Assembly (NCBI GenBank): GCA_017552615.1
Contig: JAFZPI010000017.1
Location: 1 to 50,567 of the forward strand
DNA length: 50,567 nt
Origin: Clostridia bacterium
GTDB taxonomy: Bacteria; Bacillota; Clostridia; Christensenellales; Aristaeellaceae
Direction: 5' to 3'
Shown here piece by piece: positions 2,732-9,531 of the stretch (position 1 is its first letter; each line of letters begins with the position of its first letter). Below the pieces are notes generated by a model. The model was not told where the DNA came from. It saw nothing but the letters and a program-made list of their open reading frames with translations, and did not search any database. Made by a program: the position numbers and the translations under genes.

Positions 2732-3892
2732 TCACATACGATCTTTTGACCTTTGATCCGTTCCGACCCGCAGACTTACCGTTGACAGCACGGCGCAGGC
2801 GATCAAGATGATGCCGTAGATCAGGACGACCTCGGAATCCATATCAATCTTGCCGAGGGTAAGTCCCGCCGCGAGGGCAAAGCCCGCCAGTTCCGCAGAG
2901 ATGGCGATGGGCGTCTCGAGTTCGTGTCTGTTCCAATGGAGGGTCAGGCAGGCCAGGCCCATTTCGGCCGAGAAGGCGATGATCAGGGCGGTGTAGAACT
3001 GCGGCTTGTCGAAGACGAACTCCGCAAAGATCACGGTCAGGAAGCCGGCGGCGACGGTCAGCAGGCGGAGAATGTCGCGCCAGGTCGCGCGGTGTTCCCG
3101 GATCACGCGCACCATGCGGATGGCCAGGACGGTTGAAATGGTCACGGCGGCGGCGATCTGTGTGAAGCTGATCACAAAGCCGAAACGGAGGGCGTCGTCA
3201 TCGCGAAGCTGCTCGAAAAAGATCTGGGAGCCGGAGAGAACAATGAGGAAAATACCGGCCAGTCGGCCGTCGGGGAGGAGAGTCTTGTGCTTTCGCTGGC
3301 GGAAAAGAAGGGTCAGGAGCGCTGCGAGGAGACACAGGGCCGCCAGCGCTTCCCAGAACCAGACGCAAACCTGCCAGGACGAAAAATCCTCGTCCGCGTA
3401 TGTACAGACGGAGAGAGGGAAGAACTGCAGGTTCTCGTCCTCGATCAGCGAGCCGATGCCCTGGCCGTTGAAGACCTCCGCGGCACGGCCACAGGCCAGC
3501 GCCAAGCAGGCGCCGGGGGCCAGGAGGTCCAGGGTCCGCAGGAGGGAGGGCTGTCCTTTTTCCCGTGTGAAAACCCAGAAAACAAGAACGCCCAGTAAAC
3601 CGCCGAAAAGGCCGCCGTAGAGGGTGGTTCCGCCCAACCACGGCTGTAGCAAAAAGAGCCATCCCGGCTCTGCGTAGACGTCGAGAAAACCAAGGTTCAC
3701 CAGGCCCCAGGCCAGATGACCGCCCAGGATCGCGCCAAGGGCCGCGCACAGGCCAGCCGCCAGGGCTTTGCGGCCGCCGAGGATGCGGGCCAGGACCAGC
3801 GCGCCGACGGCGCCTCCGGCCATCAGGAGACCGTACGGGGTGAAGCCGCCGGTGACCGGCAGCAGGAAACCCATTTCTTCCATTGGTGTCAA
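2732..3892 (-). CDS. Lgt-like polytopic membrane protein, copy 2
   Basis: A 386-residue integral membrane protein, longer than typical Lgt (~270-300), with about ten hydrophobic segments. It has the outline of prolipoprotein diacylglyceryl transferase: an N-terminal TPYGLLMAGG resembling the Lgt YGL segment, LYGGLFGG (91-98) where Lgt has HGG, CGRAAEVFNG (134-143) where Lgt has GRxxNFxN, and FEQLRDDD (226-233) near the second Lgt arginine. The histidine of HGG is absent and the Asn of GRxxN is replaced by Glu, so ordinary prolipoprotein modification is doubtful. It shares FFPLSV, RAAE and E-x2-R-D motifs with the copy at 4852-5916. The start shown is TTG; ATG at 3883 is the alternative. It is the last gene of the four-gene operon. 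Confidence 0.72.
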   Translation of the reverse strand: MTPMEEMGFLLPVTGGFTPYGLLMAGGAVGALVLARILGGRKALAAGLCAALGAILGGHLAWGLVNLGFLDVYAEPGWLFLLQPWLGGTTLYGGLFGGLLGVLVFWVFTREKGQPSLLRTLDLLAPGACLALACGRAAEVFNGQGIGSLIEDENLQFFPLSVCTYADEDFSSWQVCVWFWEALAALCLLAALLTLLFRQRKHKTLLPDGRLAGIFLIVLSGSQIFFEQLRDDDALRFGFVISFTQIAAAVTISTVLAIRMVRVIREHRATWRDILRLLTVAAGFLTVIFAEFVFDKPQFYTALIIAFSAEMGLACLTLHWNRHELETPIAISAELAGFALAAGLTLGKIDMDSEVVLIYGIILIACAVLSTVSLRVGTDQRSKDRM

Positions 3893-3910
3893 ACCCCATT
3901 ATCCGCGGGC

Positions 3911-4855
3911 TCAGGGCAGGGAATACGCTTCCTCCGCGGTGATAAAGTAGATGCAGTCGGAGATCGTGCGTTTTTTGCCGTTCAGGGCGTTGATGCGGGT
4001 TGTTCCGAGCACCAGCCAGGAGGAGGAGCCACCGTCGAGGTTGAAGGCCTCTTGGGCGCCCATGTCGTAGGCCAGCTGGGCGAGCTCGGGGATGGTGTAT
4101 CCACCGTTATCATGCTGTTCCGGGCCTTCGGTGGTGATGATGAGGTAGCTCAGCTCGTCCATCTGGCAGAGGGCTGTGCGCTGGGCCTTGCCGTACCCGA
4201 CACGGCGCATGCACATTTCGGTGTACTCCGTCTGCAGGACACCGTCGATGACCAGCGCCGGGCCAAAGACGAATGACTGCAGGATCTCGCCGTCAAAATC
4301 GTCGTAGTTGTTGGCAACCGGAGCCCGGAAGATGTGGAAATCCCCGTTCCCGTCGATAAACATGCAGTCCCACTCGGTGGCTTTGGCCTTCCGCAGGGTC
4401 TGCCCGTTGCGGATGACCACGCCCTGGGTGCGGTCCACGCAGTAGTCGCCGCTGATGGTGAGCACGGCGTGCTCCCGCTCGGCCATGGTCGTGACGAAAA
4501 CGGTCTGCTTGGAGGGATATTTGCGCCAGGAGGTTGTGCGGATCTGGGTGGGATCGGCGATCTGCACCCAGGTGAAATACACTTTGGTGACCCCGATGAC
4601 CCGGCTCTCGATGCGCACCGAAAGCGTTCCGTCCAGGTATCCGCCCTGGTCCGACAGCCAGCCCTCCGCGTGGGGCTCATAGGGGGTCTTGGCCTGGAGG
4701 TCGATCGGTGCTGCGTCCGGGTTCTGCAATTCCACGGGATTGTAGTACGGGAGGTCCGCCTCCGCCGCGGCCACGGGCATGGAGGACGGAACGAGGAACG
4801 CGATCAGTACGAACACCAGGATCAGGACCAGGACCAGCGGCAGGATCTTTTTCAA
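3911..4855 (-). CDS. Secreted phosphodiester glycosidase (NAGPA domain), copy 2
   Basis: A 314-residue protein with an N-terminal hydrophobic export or anchor segment (about residues 3-24), then a NAGPA/phosphodiester glycosidase domain: an ISGDYC block, a VVIRNGQ strand, an FGPALVIDG block and the C-terminal signature AFNLDGGSSSWLVL. Family members hydrolyse sugar-1-phosphodiester bonds, classically GlcNAc-1-phospho-6-mannose; the substrate here is unknown. I chose the TTG start at 4855 because it has AGGAGG 6 bp upstream, opens directly on the signal sequence and overlaps the TGA of the upstream Lgt-like gene (TTGA), implying translational coupling. A longer upstream frame exists but would bury the signal peptide. 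Confidence 0.82.
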   Translation of the reverse strand: MKKILPLVLVLILVFVLIAFLVPSSMPVAAAEADLPYYNPVELQNPDAAPIDLQAKTPYEPHAEGWLSDQGGYLDGTLSVRIESRVIGVTKVYFTWVQIADPTQIRTTSWRKYPSKQTVFVTTMAEREHAVLTISGDYCVDRTQGVVIRNGQTLRKAKATEWDCMFIDGNGDFHIFRAPVANNYDDFDGEILQSFVFGPALVIDGVLQTEYTEMCMRRVGYGKAQRTALCQMDELSYLIITTEGPEQHDNGGYTIPELAQLAYDMGAQEAFNLDGGSSSWLVLGTTRINALNGKKRTISDCIYFITAEEAYSLP

Positions 4856-5916
4856 AGGAGAGCCTCCTTGCGTATCTGGCGGCGGGTCAGGATGAGCTCC
4901 ATCACCAGCATGCCGATGTCGGTCAGGATCATACCGGGATAGCACCAGTCCTTGGGATGGATCTTCATCCAGTCTTTGGCTGCCTCCCCGAGGGGCAGCG
5001 CGTCGATGAACGACGTGAGTTTGTCGTCAAGGCCGAACTGGAGCGCGGCGTTGACACCGATGATCAGCAGGAGAAGGAAGACCGGCACGGCGATCCCGAG
5101 CCAGCTTTTGCGGGAGCGCACGGCCGCGAGCAGGATGCACGCGGTCATGGCGGCCATGCAGAGGATCTGTTCCATCTGCACGAGCACAAAGATCGTGTGG
5201 CTGAGGTTGTCCCGCATGAGCTCCAGGATGAATACGGGTGCGCACAGGAACACGACGGTCCGCTCAAAAGCCACGCCGCGGGCCCCGGAGCATTTGCGGA
5301 GCCAGTGCACGGCGAGAAAAACACAGATCAGGCTGAAGATCGCGATATGCAAGCTGATGGGCAGCACCCACTCCTGTTCCCACGCGGCGTCGCCCCACAT
5401 GTCCTCGCTGTAGGAGGTGTTGGGCACGGACAGCGGGAAGAAGTGGGTCCAGCCGGCTTCGGTCAGGTCCTGTCCCTGGGCATAGCGGCCAATGGAACGG
5501 AAAACACCCTCGGCTTCATCGAGGCCCCGCGCACCGAGGAAACACTCGGCGGCGCGCGCAAACGTCACGCCCAAAGCCAGCGGGGCGGCGAAGCAGTCCA
5601 GGGCCCGTCGGACGGGCACTTTCGCCGCCAGAGCCGCGAGGACGCAGCCCAGCGTGAATCCCGCGCAGCCCCCCACAAAGGAGAGATGCTCGTGGTTCAG
5701 CTCGGTCAGCGCGCCGAGGCCGAGGTCCGCGAAGACATCCATCCGGAACAGGACGTACACGCCCTTTGAAAGAATGTAGCCTGTCACAAGACCGATGGCG
5801 AGCGTCAGCCAGGCTAGCCTGCGCTTCTCGCCCTCCCGGGCCAGGATGAGATGAAAGAGCCAGGCGCTCAACAGCAGGCCGCCGCCGAAGATCAGGACAA
5901 ACGGAATCGCGTCCAT
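4852..5916 (-). CDS. Lgt-like polytopic membrane protein, copy 1
   Basis: A 354-residue multi-pass membrane protein paralogous to the one at 2732-3892. Shared landmarks are SFVGGCAG (79-86, at the Lgt HGG position), FARAAECFLG (119-128), HFFPLSV (158-164) and ILELMRDN (230-237). As in its paralog, the Lgt HGG histidine is missing and GRxxN reads RAAE, while an arginine in each motif is retained. The ATG at 5916 is chosen because the longer frame overlaps the preceding gene and has no ribosome binding site; GGGAG lies 13 bp upstream. The gene is flanked and coupled on both sides by the NAGPA-domain genes, so the pair is likely one functional unit in the envelope. The reaction is unknown. Confidence 0.72.
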   Translation of the reverse strand: MDAIPFVLIFGGGLLLSAWLFHLILAREGEKRRLAWLTLAIGLVTGYILSKGVYVLFRMDVFADLGLGALTELNHEHLSFVGGCAGFTLGCVLAALAAKVPVRRALDCFAAPLALGVTFARAAECFLGARGLDEAEGVFRSIGRYAQGQDLTEAGWTHFFPLSVPNTSYSEDMWGDAAWEQEWVLPISLHIAIFSLICVFLAVHWLRKCSGARGVAFERTVVFLCAPVFILELMRDNLSHTIFVLVQMEQILCMAAMTACILLAAVRSRKSWLGIAVPVFLLLLIIGVNAALQFGLDDKLTSFIDALPLGEAAKDWMKIHPKDWCYPGMILTDIGMLVMELILTRRQIRKEALL

Positions 5917-5935
5917 GGCGATGATGTCACTCCCA

Positions 5936-6850
5936 TTACTGCGCAGAGGCGAAATAGATGATATCGAGAAGCTTGCGGGCTTCGTGGCCGGAGCCGTTCG
6001 CGCGTTTTCCGCACAGGGCAATCGTAGCCGAGTTGCCGCCGTCGAGGTTATAGGCGACCTGGACGCCCTGGCGCCAGACCAGGTCGGCGAACTGGGACAT
6101 GGTCATGCCCTTCGAGCCGAGGGAGGGGCCGGAGCAGGCGATCACTTTATAATGCAGGGGTCCCGCCTGGCAGATGCAGATGCGCTGCTTGTAGCCTGCG
6201 GAGTCCATGTCCACGAAACTGCGGTCCGAGCGGTGGTAATCCGTGATCAGTTCGCCGTTGTCGACCAGGCAGGGGCCGAAGGTGAAGGCGTTGATGATGC
6301 GTTTGCCGTTGATGGTCTCCGGGATGCTGTCCTGTGTGGGCCGGTAGAAGATATGGAAATCCCCGTCCTCGTCGATGAGGAGGACGTCCATCAGGCGGCC
6401 GTAAGTCGTGTCTTCCTCCTCCAGGTGGTTGCGGTACATGATGCCCTGGCGGATGATATACCCCATGCCGTGCTTGTCCGCGGCGTTGTTGTAGTCGCCG
6501 TTGACGGCCAGGACCGCGTTCACTTCCTGCGCCATGCGCAGGGGATCCCGCGCGTCGTTGGAGTCGAAGCTGGTCGCGGCCTTGGTGCGCAGTTGGGAGG
6601 CGTCGCTGATCACGATGTCTGCCACCCAGTATTCGGTGCGGGCTTCGTGGCCGCTGACGATGGTCACGGTGATGGTGCTGTCCGTGTACCCGCAGACGGT
6701 GTTGCCGTCCGCGTCGGTATATGGCGCGGTATAGCCCTCCCGGGAGAGGCTGGAACCGCCGGAGAAATCGATCGGCAGCGGGATCTCGGCCCCCGCAGCG
6801 ACGCAGAACAGGCACAGGAACAGGGCGATGGACAGGATGCGTTTCAGCAT
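5936..6850 (-). CDS. Secreted phosphodiester glycosidase (NAGPA domain), copy 1
   Basis: A 304-residue protein with a clean signal peptide (MLKRILSIALFLCLFCVAAGA) followed by a NAGPA domain: LAVNGDYNN, YIIRQGIMYR, TFGPCLVDNG and the signature AYNLDGGNSATIALCG. The ATG at 6850 is preferred over the one at 6880 because GAGGTG sits 7 bp upstream and translation opens on the signal peptide. It is the first gene of the operon and directly follows the promoter at 6881-6909. It is paralogous to the protein at 3911-4855 but clearly diverged, so the duplication of the pair is not recent. Confidence 0.85.
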   Translation of the reverse strand: MLKRILSIALFLCLFCVAAGAEIPLPIDFSGGSSLSREGYTAPYTDADGNTVCGYTDSTITVTIVSGHEARTEYWVADIVISDASQLRTKAATSFDSNDARDPLRMAQEVNAVLAVNGDYNNAADKHGMGYIIRQGIMYRNHLEEEDTTYGRLMDVLLIDEDGDFHIFYRPTQDSIPETINGKRIINAFTFGPCLVDNGELITDYHRSDRSFVDMDSAGYKQRICICQAGPLHYKVIACSGPSLGSKGMTMSQFADLVWRQGVQVAYNLDGGNSATIALCGKRANGSGHEARKLLDIIYFASAQ

Positions 6851-6880
6851 GGTGCACACCTCGACATAAAAATTCATCAT

Positions 6881-6909
6881 ATTGTAACAATTTTGACCGG
6901 ACTTGTCAA
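6881..6909 (-). promoter_or_regulatory. sigma-A promoter of the NAGPA/Lgt-like operon
   Basis: Minus strand TTGACA (6904-6909), 17 bp spacer, TACAAT (6881-6886), about 30 bp upstream of the chosen start codon. No operator-like palindrome is evident. Confidence 0.85.
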
Positions 6910-6955: not shown

Positions 6956-6980
6956 AAAACCCCGCCGGGGTGCGGCGGGG
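6956..6980 (-). terminator. Terminator of the sugar ABC operon
   Basis: CCCCGCCG / CGGCGGGG, an 8 bp GC stem with a 5 nt loop, followed on the minus strand by TTTTCACTT. It lies about 30 bp beyond the mmsB-like stop codon. Confidence 0.85.
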
Positions 6981-7011
6981 CAGGATGGGTGACCGTTTGG
7001 ATTCAGGATAT

Positions 7012-9531
7012 TTACTTGACTTGTTTTTCCGCGGCTTTCTCAGCTTGGGTTTCCGTATGCGCGGCCTCCTTATGCTTGCCGAAGCCGAAGCGGGAGAACA
7101 GGCTGATGGACGAGCCGTTCTTGGAGATGATGTCGATGACGACGGCGACCAGGAGGACCAGGCCCAGGACGACCTGCTGGATATCCATGGACATACCGAC
7201 CATCGACATGCCGTTCTTGATCATGGCCATGGTCAGAGCGCCGACGACCGCGCCGCCGACGGTACCGATGCCGCCGTATGCGGAGGCGCCGCCGATGTAG
7301 CAGGCCGCGATAGCGTTCAGCTCTTCACCCTGGCCGGCCATCGGGAAGGCGGAGTTGGCGCGGACCGCGTAGGTCAGGCCGGCGAGGGATGCCAGGAAGC
7401 CCATGTTAACGTAGGTCAGGAAGAGCATGCGCTGGGTCTTGACACCCGAGAGCCGGGCCGCGTTCACGTTGCCGCCCATGGCGTACAGGTGACGGCCGGG
7501 AACCGTTTTCTGGGTCAGGAAAGTGTACGCGATCAGGACCAGGGAGACCGTGATCAGCACCATCGGCATGCCTCTGTCCTGAGACAGGGAGTAGAACACC
7601 CAAATCAGAACCGCAGAGATGAGGCCGGTTTTGAGCAGCATCTTTCCGAGCGGCTCAACGGCATTGCCCTTCCGGGCCTGCTTGATCCGGCCGTAGAATT
7701 TGAGGCCCACAAAGGCGGCCACCACGATCAGGCCGATCCACAGGGCGAGGCTCTTGTCACCGCCGAGCGAGCCGCCGAAGATGTTCCGGAAGCCTTCCGG
7801 GAACGGCGCGCGGGTCTCACCCTTCAGGAGCACCATGGTCAGGCCGTAGAAGGTCAGCTGGCCGGCCAGGGTCACGACGAATGCGGGGATCTTCATGTAA
7901 GCGATCCAGAAGCCCTGCCAGGCGCCAATGGCAATGCCGATCAGCAGGCACAGCGGCAGGACGACAGCGACCGGCAGTTTGACGTCTTCCACCAGAATGG
8001 CGGCGCACGCTGCGATGAAGCCCATCACGCGGCCGACAGACAGGTCGATGTTGGCGCTGGAGATAATGCACAGCAGCATACCGGTCGCCAGGATGACGAT
8101 GTAACCGGCCTGGTTGATGACGTTCGTGATGTTCTGGGGACTCAGGTTGGCGTAGTGGGTCATGATGAAGAAGAACAGCGTGATGACCACCAGCGCCACC
8201 AGCATCATGTTCTTGTTGGCGGCGGCGCCGATCTTCTTCAGCAGGTCCGGCTTCAGCCAGCCGATCAGGCACAGGACACCGATGACCAGCAGCAGCCCGG
8301 CGCCCCAGAAGAAGTAATCCCAGTTGTCCTTCAGGGTGCCGTTTGTACCGGTCTCAAGTTCCTTGATCTGGGCTTTGCGTTCTGCGATCCGCTGGGCAGC
8401 CTCGTCCTTCTCTTCCGAGGATTTGGCGTTCTCGGCCTTGGCCTGTTCCTCAAACTGCTGGATCTGCTGGACAAAGAGATCGACGGAGGAGGTTTCGGGC
8501 TCATAGGGTGTCAGCTCGATCTCAAGACCGTTTTCCTCGGCGACCTTTTTGACCTGTTCGACAGCCTTTTCATACTGTTTGCGGGTCGTGGCTTCGGAGG
8601 TCTTGGGATGCTGGCCGTCGTAGTTGATGATCTTCTTCAGATAAGTGTTGGCCAGGTTGAATTGTTTGAAGAGGTCGCTGTTGGCCTGCTTCACGGCTTC
8701 TGCATCCTCGGGATTCAATCCGGCGAACGCGTTGACCTGCTCGAGACGGTAGAGGATGTTTTTGCCCTCGTTTGTCTCGAGATAGCCGACGGCTTCCTCG
8801 CGGGCTTTCTCAGCTGCTTCGATGCAGGCGTCGATGTCCTTGAACAGGGGATCGACTTCCGGTGCAACCGGCTGTTCCGCCTTGCGCAGCGCATCGTTGA
8901 CCGCTGTCATGATGAAGCCTTCGAGCTTGTCGACTTCTTCCGGGTTGACGACTTTTTCCGCGAGGGTGATGTCCGTCATCTCGGGGCGGTCGGTAAAGAC
9001 GACCTTGACGTCGCCGCCGCCGCTGGCCGCTTCGACCGTGCGGAGGCCGTCCTCCGCCTCGGCGGCCGTCTCTTCCGCGAGGGCTTCGCCTTCTGTCGGT
9101 GCAGTTGCATCGGCAACAACAGTCTCGGTGGCTGCCTCGGGGTTCTCGGCCGTTTCAACCGGCGTCTCGACAGCCGTTGTGGTCTCCTCGGTCACCGCGC
9201 CTGCTTCTTCCGCCGGGACGGTTTCGGAAGTCTCCTCTGTTTCGGGAGTCTCTTCTTCATCCGTCGGATAGAGGAGCTTGTTCAGCGCGGCTCGATCCGC
9301 TTTCATCTGGGCAATATAGCCGTCGATGTTCGCGATAGCCACCTCGGCGATCGATTTGCAGTTCTCTGTCTTGGCGACGTATTGCTGGATGTTCGCCTGG
9401 TATTCTTCGTAGTCGTTGTCTTTCAGTGTCTGCCATTCGTTTTTGATCTGCAGACCCTTGAAGCCGACAACGGACAGGCCGATCGCAAGCACCAGCAGAA
9501 CGACGGTTGCAATCTTGATCCCGTGTTTCAT
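7012..9531 (-). CDS. mmsB: Multiple-sugar ABC transporter permease with large N-terminal extracytoplasmic domain
   Basis: An 839-residue protein about twice the usual size of this permease family. Residues ~440-820 are a standard branched-chain-amino-acid/ribose-type permease (SSANIDLSVGRVMGF, AFVVTLAGQLTFYGL, YAMGGNVNAARLSGV, GEELNAIAACYIGGAS). The N-terminus adds one membrane segment (7-25), then about 380 extracytoplasmic residues: an acidic Glu/Thr/Ala/Pro-rich stretch (~92-165), helical charged segments (~195-395) and a second membrane segment (~405-425). The frame is open without a break and the only good ribosome binding site (GAAGGAAGGG) is at 9531, so the extension appears genuine. 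It follows the ATPase gene by 45 bp. Together with the ChvE-like protein and ATPase it should import monosaccharides. Confidence 0.88.
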   Translation of the reverse strand: MKHGIKIATVVLLVLAIGLSVVGFKGLQIKNEWQTLKDNDYEEYQANIQQYVAKTENCKSIAEVAIANIDGYIAQMKADRAALNKLLYPTDEEETPETEETSETVPAEEAGAVTEETTTAVETPVETAENPEAATETVVADATAPTEGEALAEETAAEAEDGLRTVEAASGGGDVKVVFTDRPEMTDITLAEKVVNPEEVDKLEGFIMTAVNDALRKAEQPVAPEVDPLFKDIDACIEAAEKAREEAVGYLETNEGKNILYRLEQVNAFAGLNPEDAEAVKQANSDLFKQFNLANTYLKKIINYDGQHPKTSEATTRKQYEKAVEQVKKVAEENGLEIELTPYEPETSSVDLFVQQIQQFEEQAKAENAKSSEEKDEAAQRIAERKAQIKELETGTNGTLKDNWDYFFWGAGLLLVIGVLCLIGWLKPDLLKKIGAAANKNMMLVALVVITLFFFIMTHYANLSPQNITNVINQAGYIVILATGMLLCIISSANIDLSVGRVMGFIAACAAILVEDVKLPVAVVLPLCLLIGIAIGAWQGFWIAYMKIPAFVVTLAGQLTFYGLTMVLLKGETRAPFPEGFRNIFGGSLGGDKSLALWIGLIVVAAFVGLKFYGRIKQARKGNAVEPLGKMLLKTGLISAVLIWVFYSLSQDRGMPMVLITVSLVLIAYTFLTQKTVPGRHLYAMGGNVNAARLSGVKTQRMLFLTYVNMGFLASLAGLTYAVRANSAFPMAGQGEELNAIAACYIGGASAYGGIGTVGGAVVGALTMAMIKNGMSMVGMSMDIQQVVLGLVLLVAVVIDIISKNGSSISLFSRFGFGKHKEAAHTETQAEKAAEKQVK

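Follow-up and report, generated by a model that had tools for sequence, protein, structure and literature searches.

Recurrent pairing of a secreted NAGPA-family protein with an Lgt-like membrane protein in Clostridia: a candidate module of the cell envelope

Lgt is known for one reaction, the lipidation of prolipoproteins, and has been considered as a target for antibiotics, and mammalian NAGPA is the mannose-6-phosphate uncovering enzyme. Relatives of both proteins are encoded as two consecutive pairs, in the order NAGPA-B, Lgt-like-B, NAGPA-A and Lgt-like-A, on the minus strand of the stretch of DNA analysed here (contig JAFZPI010000017.1 of a Clostridia bacterium, 50,567 nucleotides, termed the window). 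According to excerpts of the cited papers, the Lgt fold binds phosphatidylglycerol with the headgroup towards the outer face (PMC4728403), NAGPA enzymes free phosphodiester-linked sugars (PMC12419801), and multi-component glycosylation combines a C55-P-sugar synthase, a GtrA flippase and a GT-C transferase (PMC8035078).

Compared with Lgt (PF01790; E. coli structure 5azb), the Lgt-like proteins differ by the replacement of N146 by Glu and of R239 by Gln, the loss of E151 and N149 and the presence of extra C-terminal helices, and also by having a NAGPA partner and a canonical lgt elsewhere in the genome. Compared with the NAGPA/DUF2233 phosphodiester glycosidase (BACOVA_00430, structure 3ohg), the NAGPA proteins in question are bacterial and predicted to be secreted, with an Lgt-like gene directly 3' in 49 of the 150 listed.

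Occurrence and inheritance of the pair

The pairing was surveyed in 40 genomes (the source genome included; 24 of the 40 in the window's own family), in which PF01790 gave 106 matches and PF09992 at least 150 (150 listed). A pair was recorded when a NAGPA match lay no more than 300 bases upstream on the same strand, and the pair counts are lower bounds. NAGPA was found directly upstream of at least 49 of the 69 Lgt matches below 150 bits (at least 1 of 10 at 110-150 bits and at least 48 of 59 below 110 bits) and, among the matches listed, of none of the 37 at 150 bits or above, by which a chance neighbourhood of the two genes was rejected. The pairs, at least 49 in at least 21 genomes, were seen at 1 to 5 per genome, and in most of them no more than a few dozen bases separate the NAGPA stop from the Lgt-like start. 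All of these genomes belong to the family of the window, which consists of uncultured Clostridia, several of animal-gut origin. The pairing is thus not confined to the source genome. Among the 20 unpaired Lgt matches below 150 bits, the 14 below 125 bits were re-examined by using pair-derived profiles; 3 of them proved paired, one further locus (L066) showed the NAGPA-Lgt-NAGPA-Lgt order as in the window, and two loci showed the order NAGPA-NAGPA-Lgt.

A third pair of the source genome (assembly of 2.03 Mb in 49 contigs, 72.8% complete) was located on contig C42, with the Lgt-like gene starting 22 nucleotides past the NAGPA stop; searches of viral contigs and plasmids found nothing related to this Lgt-like protein. 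By a scan of named contigs with C42-type Lgt-like proteins alone, 23 loci were obtained, partly on the same contigs as in the survey above, all titled Clostridia, Clostridiales or Christensenellaceae and in some cases with sample names that mention rumen, omasum or rectum. NAGPA was directly upstream in 22 of them, and in the 23rd the match begins at base 40 of the contig. From 248 genomes of the order, 30 loci were returned, 13 with an upstream NAGPA (two of them already counted above) and 15 others without it. Among 398 phylum-level genomes (the source genome included), only the source genome passed E 1e-52, a stringent threshold at which diverged families would be missed, other phyla not being directly surveyed.

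The co-divergence of the partners was estimated from the Lgt-like and NAGPA distance matrices of 48 pairs (1 of the 49 was omitted for a truncated Lgt-like protein), which gave correlations of 0.81 (Pearson) and 0.47 (Spearman). None of 2000 free permutations reached the Pearson value, nor did any of 2000 permutations made within genomes (mean 0.13 and maximum 0.49 for the latter). Since the matrices are correlated, the pair has largely been inherited as a unit. Conserved pairing across the family, together with co-divergence, makes it very probable that NAGPA and the Lgt-derived protein work together, as had been supposed in the initial annotation from the sequence of the window.

That annotation had also read the two pairs of the window as a local duplication of the pair as a unit, a view abandoned here. 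The identity between them is 18.5% for the Lgt-like and 33% for the NAGPA proteins and closer relatives exist in other genomes, by which a recent tandem duplication was rejected; judged by their sequences, the two pairs are old paralogues. The tandem order NAGPA-Lgt-NAGPA-Lgt of the second genome (L066:4053-7844) was also considered as the window quartet relocated, which was rejected because pairs other than those of the window are the better matches to its genes.

Active site, fold and clade of the Lgt-like proteins

The PF01790 profile gave four matches in the source genome, on contig C7 (228.7 bits), on C42 (85.2 bits) and in the window (76.6 and 37 bits). The C7 protein passes the NCBIfam equivalog profile for Lgt, TIGR00544 (182.6 bits against a cut-off of 118.9), which is missed by the two window proteins (62.4 and 25.9 bits) and the C42 protein (47.1 bits). 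It retains R143, N146, N149, E151, G154, E202, R239, E243 and R246, with Tyr at 103. A separate canonical lgt is therefore present on C7, and the possibility that the window holds the only lgt of the genome was ruled out.

The site residues (E. coli Lgt numbering) were compared among 49 paired and 28 canonical proteins; a later table added 15 proteins (12 unpaired and 3 re-classed as paired). The canonical set was obtained by tblastn among 30 fetched loci and includes the C7 gene, which was entered once more in the later table. In the 49 paired proteins, R143 is kept in 46, E243 in 46, R246 in 41 and E202 in 43; Glu replaces N146 and Gln replaces R239 in 43 each, and Phe occupies position 256 in 46. 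R239 is present in 28/28 canonical proteins and absent from all 52 paired proteins tabulated (45 Gln, 5 other residues, 2 gaps); the 12 unpaired ones have Arg (7) or Gln (5). The exact set R143-E146-Q239-E243-R246 was found in 35 of the 49, which argues for a working site. Lgt-like-A has all five of these residues, and Lgt-like-B has R143, E146, E243 and R246.

In E. coli Lgt, R143, E243 and R246 are described as part of a buried network near the bound phosphatidylglycerol, and R239A, R239E, R239H, R239K and R239Q fail (PMC4728403); the failure of N146A and of R239A is described in another study (PMC13251419). The excerpts disagree on E151 and E243, with E151A/Q and E243A/Q/R inactive according to PMC4728403 and E151A and E243A functional according to PMC13251419, so the argument rests on R143, N146 and R239. 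Loss of R239 is common to the paired proteins and the divergent Lgt-annotated proteins of Deinococci, Myxococcales and others (PMC13251419); the latter are, by the excerpt, also without R143, whereas the paired proteins keep it in 46 of 49.

For the phylogenetic tree, 91 proteins were retained (2 of 93 were dropped for gaps). All 55 proteins without R239 fell into one clade with moderate support (0.69), and its sister contains the canonical Lgts of the order. The predicted fold of Lgt-like-A matches Lgt, in agreement with the Lgt outline noticed earlier. A part of that outline, the YGL motif, is present in Lgt-like-A and missing from Lgt-like-B. The RAAE (with Glu for N146) and E-x2-R-D motifs were recovered in both window proteins. 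Two other proposed marks were discarded: the lost HGG histidine, not being discriminating with Tyr at position 103 in 27/28 canonical Lgts of the order, and FFPLSV, to which FFPASV corresponds in canonical Lgt. The loss of R239 (Gln in Lgt-like-A, Val in Lgt-like-B) had been overlooked. The earlier view that the membrane proteins are not ordinary prolipoprotein Lgts thus stands on the canonical lgt elsewhere, the R239-less clade and the altered site, and its histidine argument is withdrawn.

The opposite view, in which the Lgt-like proteins are ordinary extra Lgts lipidating particular secreted proteins, e.g. the NAGPA partner, would fit the PF01790 scores above the cut-off and the extra lgt copies known elsewhere (PMC13251419, excerpt). 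It is rendered highly improbable by the missed equivalog cut-off, by the failure of R239Q to complement in E. coli (PMC4728403, excerpt) and by a lipobox-like cysteine in only 1 of the 49 paired NAGPA proteins (simple pattern), on which count lipidation of NAGPA by its Lgt-like partner was rejected.

As another explanation, the Lgt-like protein could be an active transferase still using phosphatidylglycerol or a relative, by which diacylglyceryl or phosphoglycerol is moved to a glycan hydroxyl with E146 as the new general base, and NAGPA would trim or expose a phosphosugar on the product. The retention of R143, E243 and R246 in 46, 46 and 41 of the 49 and the carboxylate newly conserved at position 146 (43 of the 49) are consistent with it. 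However, R239, thought to hold the phosphate, occurs in 0 of the 52 paired proteins, and no annotated neighbour suggests glycolipid synthesis from phosphatidylglycerol, and this explanation is considered unlikely.

Two other groups of Lgt matches were observed in the order. In six loci (L087, L088, L089, L090, L095 and L097), Cys is present at 146 and 151, R239 is kept and NAGPA was not found alongside; Cys replacing N146 and E151 is mentioned in the excerpt of PMC13251419. In three others (L091, L093 and L096), the Lgt-like protein is R239-less and the upstream sequence is present without a NAGPA there; in L093, the next gene after the Lgt-like one belongs to the PIG-L cluster.

Proposed function of the pair

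The NAGPA proteins retain the conserved positions of their family, their predicted fold matches NAGPA/DUF2233, and a hydrophobic N-terminal segment was found in 49/49 of the paired ones. With NAGPA so preserved and the Lgt residues N146, E151 and R239 lost, the Lgt-like protein could be a non-catalytic membrane scaffold or lipid sensor anchoring the hydrolase, and NAGPA alone would be catalytic, e.g. in uncapping glycosyl-phosphate decorations of wall polymers. This arrangement is judged improbable, since a scaffold would hardly seem to require the R-E-Q-E-R residues that 35 of the 49 proteins share despite their strong divergence.

The pair is tentatively proposed to be an extracytoplasmic two-protein module acting on a lipid-phosphate-sugar, of which we infer the complex, the substrate and the reaction. 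The Lgt-fold half would have left prolipoprotein lipidation with R143, E243 and R246 of the headgroup site kept; with Glu at 146 and Gln at 239, its lipid-linked substrate is probably another one. The secreted NAGPA-fold half would break, or transfer across, a glycosyl-1-phosphodiester. Since the bond of a polyprenyl-phosphate-sugar is of the kind that NAGPA cleaves, and NAGPA is expected on the outer face, to which the Lgt headgroup site is directed, the simplest joint model is one in which the Lgt-like protein would hold a lipid-phosphate-sugar of the outer leaflet, most likely a polyprenyl-phosphate-sugar, through its lipid, and NAGPA would cut or transfer it at the sugar-phosphate bond. 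The sugar would be handed to an envelope polymer or the carrier released, and the paralogous pairs would serve different sugars or acceptors.

The neighbouring genes of one frequent locus type fit a polyprenyl-phosphate-sugar. Upstream of the pair and in the same direction, one blastp cluster was found in all 15 loci holding it (15 genomes, C42 included), and its C42 member, the only one scanned, is a GT2-GtrA protein (PF00535 and PF04138), which would make and flip such a sugar carrier. Its NCBIfam matches, all below the cut-off, were AglJ, polyprenyl-phospho-GalNAc synthase and dolichyl-phosphate hexose transferase, and a sequence search of the PDB gave no match. These 15 loci would resemble CsbB/GtcA/YfhO-type glycosylation (PMC8035078, excerpt) through the upstream GtrA-domain protein, a likely polyprenyl-P-sugar synthase, and differ from it in that no GT-C was recognised among their scanned neighbours, with NAGPA and the Lgt-like protein where a GT-C might be. 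No GT-C was found among the 10 neighbour proteins scanned in all, and no match to YfhO in the source genome (about 73% complete). That the Lgt-derived protein and NAGPA form a new class of transferase or hydrolase for lipid-linked sugars of the outer leaflet, jointly replacing the GT-C of that pathway, with pairs specialised by sugar or acceptor, is a speculative suggestion.

Several points weigh against the proposed module. NAGPA genes often stand alone, only 49 of the 150 matches listed adjoining an Lgt match, and the Lgt-like and NAGPA proteins point to the same nearest neighbour for only 24 of the 48 pairs. Among the 30 order-level loci, one Lgt-like gene has NAGPA downstream and one is without an upstream NAGPA; five R239-less Lgt-like proteins are without an upstream NAGPA, two of these reaching a contig end. 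Lgt-like-B departs further from the common site, with Val aligned at 239 and Ile at 202. The GT2-GtrA protein adjoins one pair type (the 15 loci) and is absent beside the two pairs of the window. Finally, the source genome has two further GtrA genes and one GT-C-like PMT_2 protein (contig C43), so the pair is not needed there to fill a missing GT-C role.

No description of the NAGPA/Lgt-like combination, of the E146/Q239 clade or of the genomic rule was found in a literature search of open-licence papers, and the one paper found naming both NAGPA and Lgt (PMC12419801) treats them separately in its excerpted text. Both folds are known, and there is a real chance that their combination brings new chemistry. 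A clade that descends from Lgt, has a reshaped site and is usually accompanied by a secreted protein suggests that the fold has been reused, though its genes still pass the Pfam LGT cut-off; the pairing gives bacterial NAGPA proteins a concrete context and points to a cell-envelope chemistry that has gone undescribed. Should polyprenyl-phosphate-sugars be its substrate, the pair would represent a new way to move sugars onto envelope polymers or to free the carrier.

Gene quartet of the window and neighbouring genes

The features of the quartet region are as follows.

6850 down to 2732, minus strand: gene quartet in the order NAGPA-B, Lgt-like-B, NAGPA-A, Lgt-like-A
5936..6850, minus strand: NAGPA-B, predicted secreted protein of the phosphodiester-glycosidase family (PF09992, 70.9 bits; hydrophobic N-terminal segment)
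4852..5916, minus strand: Lgt-like-B, membrane protein of 354 amino acids (PF01790, 35.3 bits; site residues)
3911..4855, minus strand: NAGPA-A, 314 amino acids (PF09992, 86.2 bits; TTG start)
2732..3883, minus strand: Lgt-like-A, membrane protein of 383 amino acids (PF01790, 75.1 bits)
6881..6909, minus strand: promoter-like site, TTGACA-17-TACAAT (11 of 12 consensus matches)
6959..6981, minus strand: terminator-like hairpin 3' of the upstream sugar ATP-binding cassette (ABC) genes (9-pair stem, then a T-rich tail)

All four genes score above the curated (gathering) cut-offs of Pfam (25 bits for PF09992 and 24.9 bits for PF01790), by which the alternating order given in the initial annotation was borne out. 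Its stop/start coupling of the second and third genes was also recovered, the TGA stop of Lgt-like-B (4854-4852) overlapping the TTG start of NAGPA-A (4855-4853) as TTGA; Lgt-like-B itself starts 19 nucleotides past the NAGPA-B stop. The gene starts were assigned computationally rather than experimentally, by a rule that gives priority to an ATG close to the expected position. The C-terminal helices of Lgt-like-A extend beyond the Lgt match.

As for the single promoter proposed for the quartet, a promoter-like site is indeed present, with TG preceding its second hexamer; the promoter and hairpin calls are consensus matches only, and 2 promoter-like sites were found against 1.1 in shuffled sequences. 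With the second hexamer ending at 6881, the first ATG of the NAGPA-B open reading frame (6880) is an unlikely start, and the ATG at 6850 was preferred. The quartet is set apart by the hairpin from the sugar ABC-transporter genes upstream, and downstream of it lies a convergent gene, helicase-like by eye.

Other pairs lie near genes of secreted clusters, of which the single members scanned match PGA_cap and PIG-L; the PIG-L cluster is present in 4 loci, at one of which it adjoins an Lgt-like gene that is unpaired. Between the GT2-GtrA and NAGPA genes of L052, L053, L055, L057 and L068, a peptide of 46-50 amino acids with a hydrophobic start and a DFL end is encoded; by eye, it is similar to the N-terminal segment with which the L120 and L124 NAGPA proteins begin. 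Adjoining the quartet, a GguB-like sugar ABC permease of 839 amino acids (7012-9531, minus strand) has an N-terminal part of about 440 residues ahead of the permease match, in which residues 164-230 match PF02575 (YbaB).

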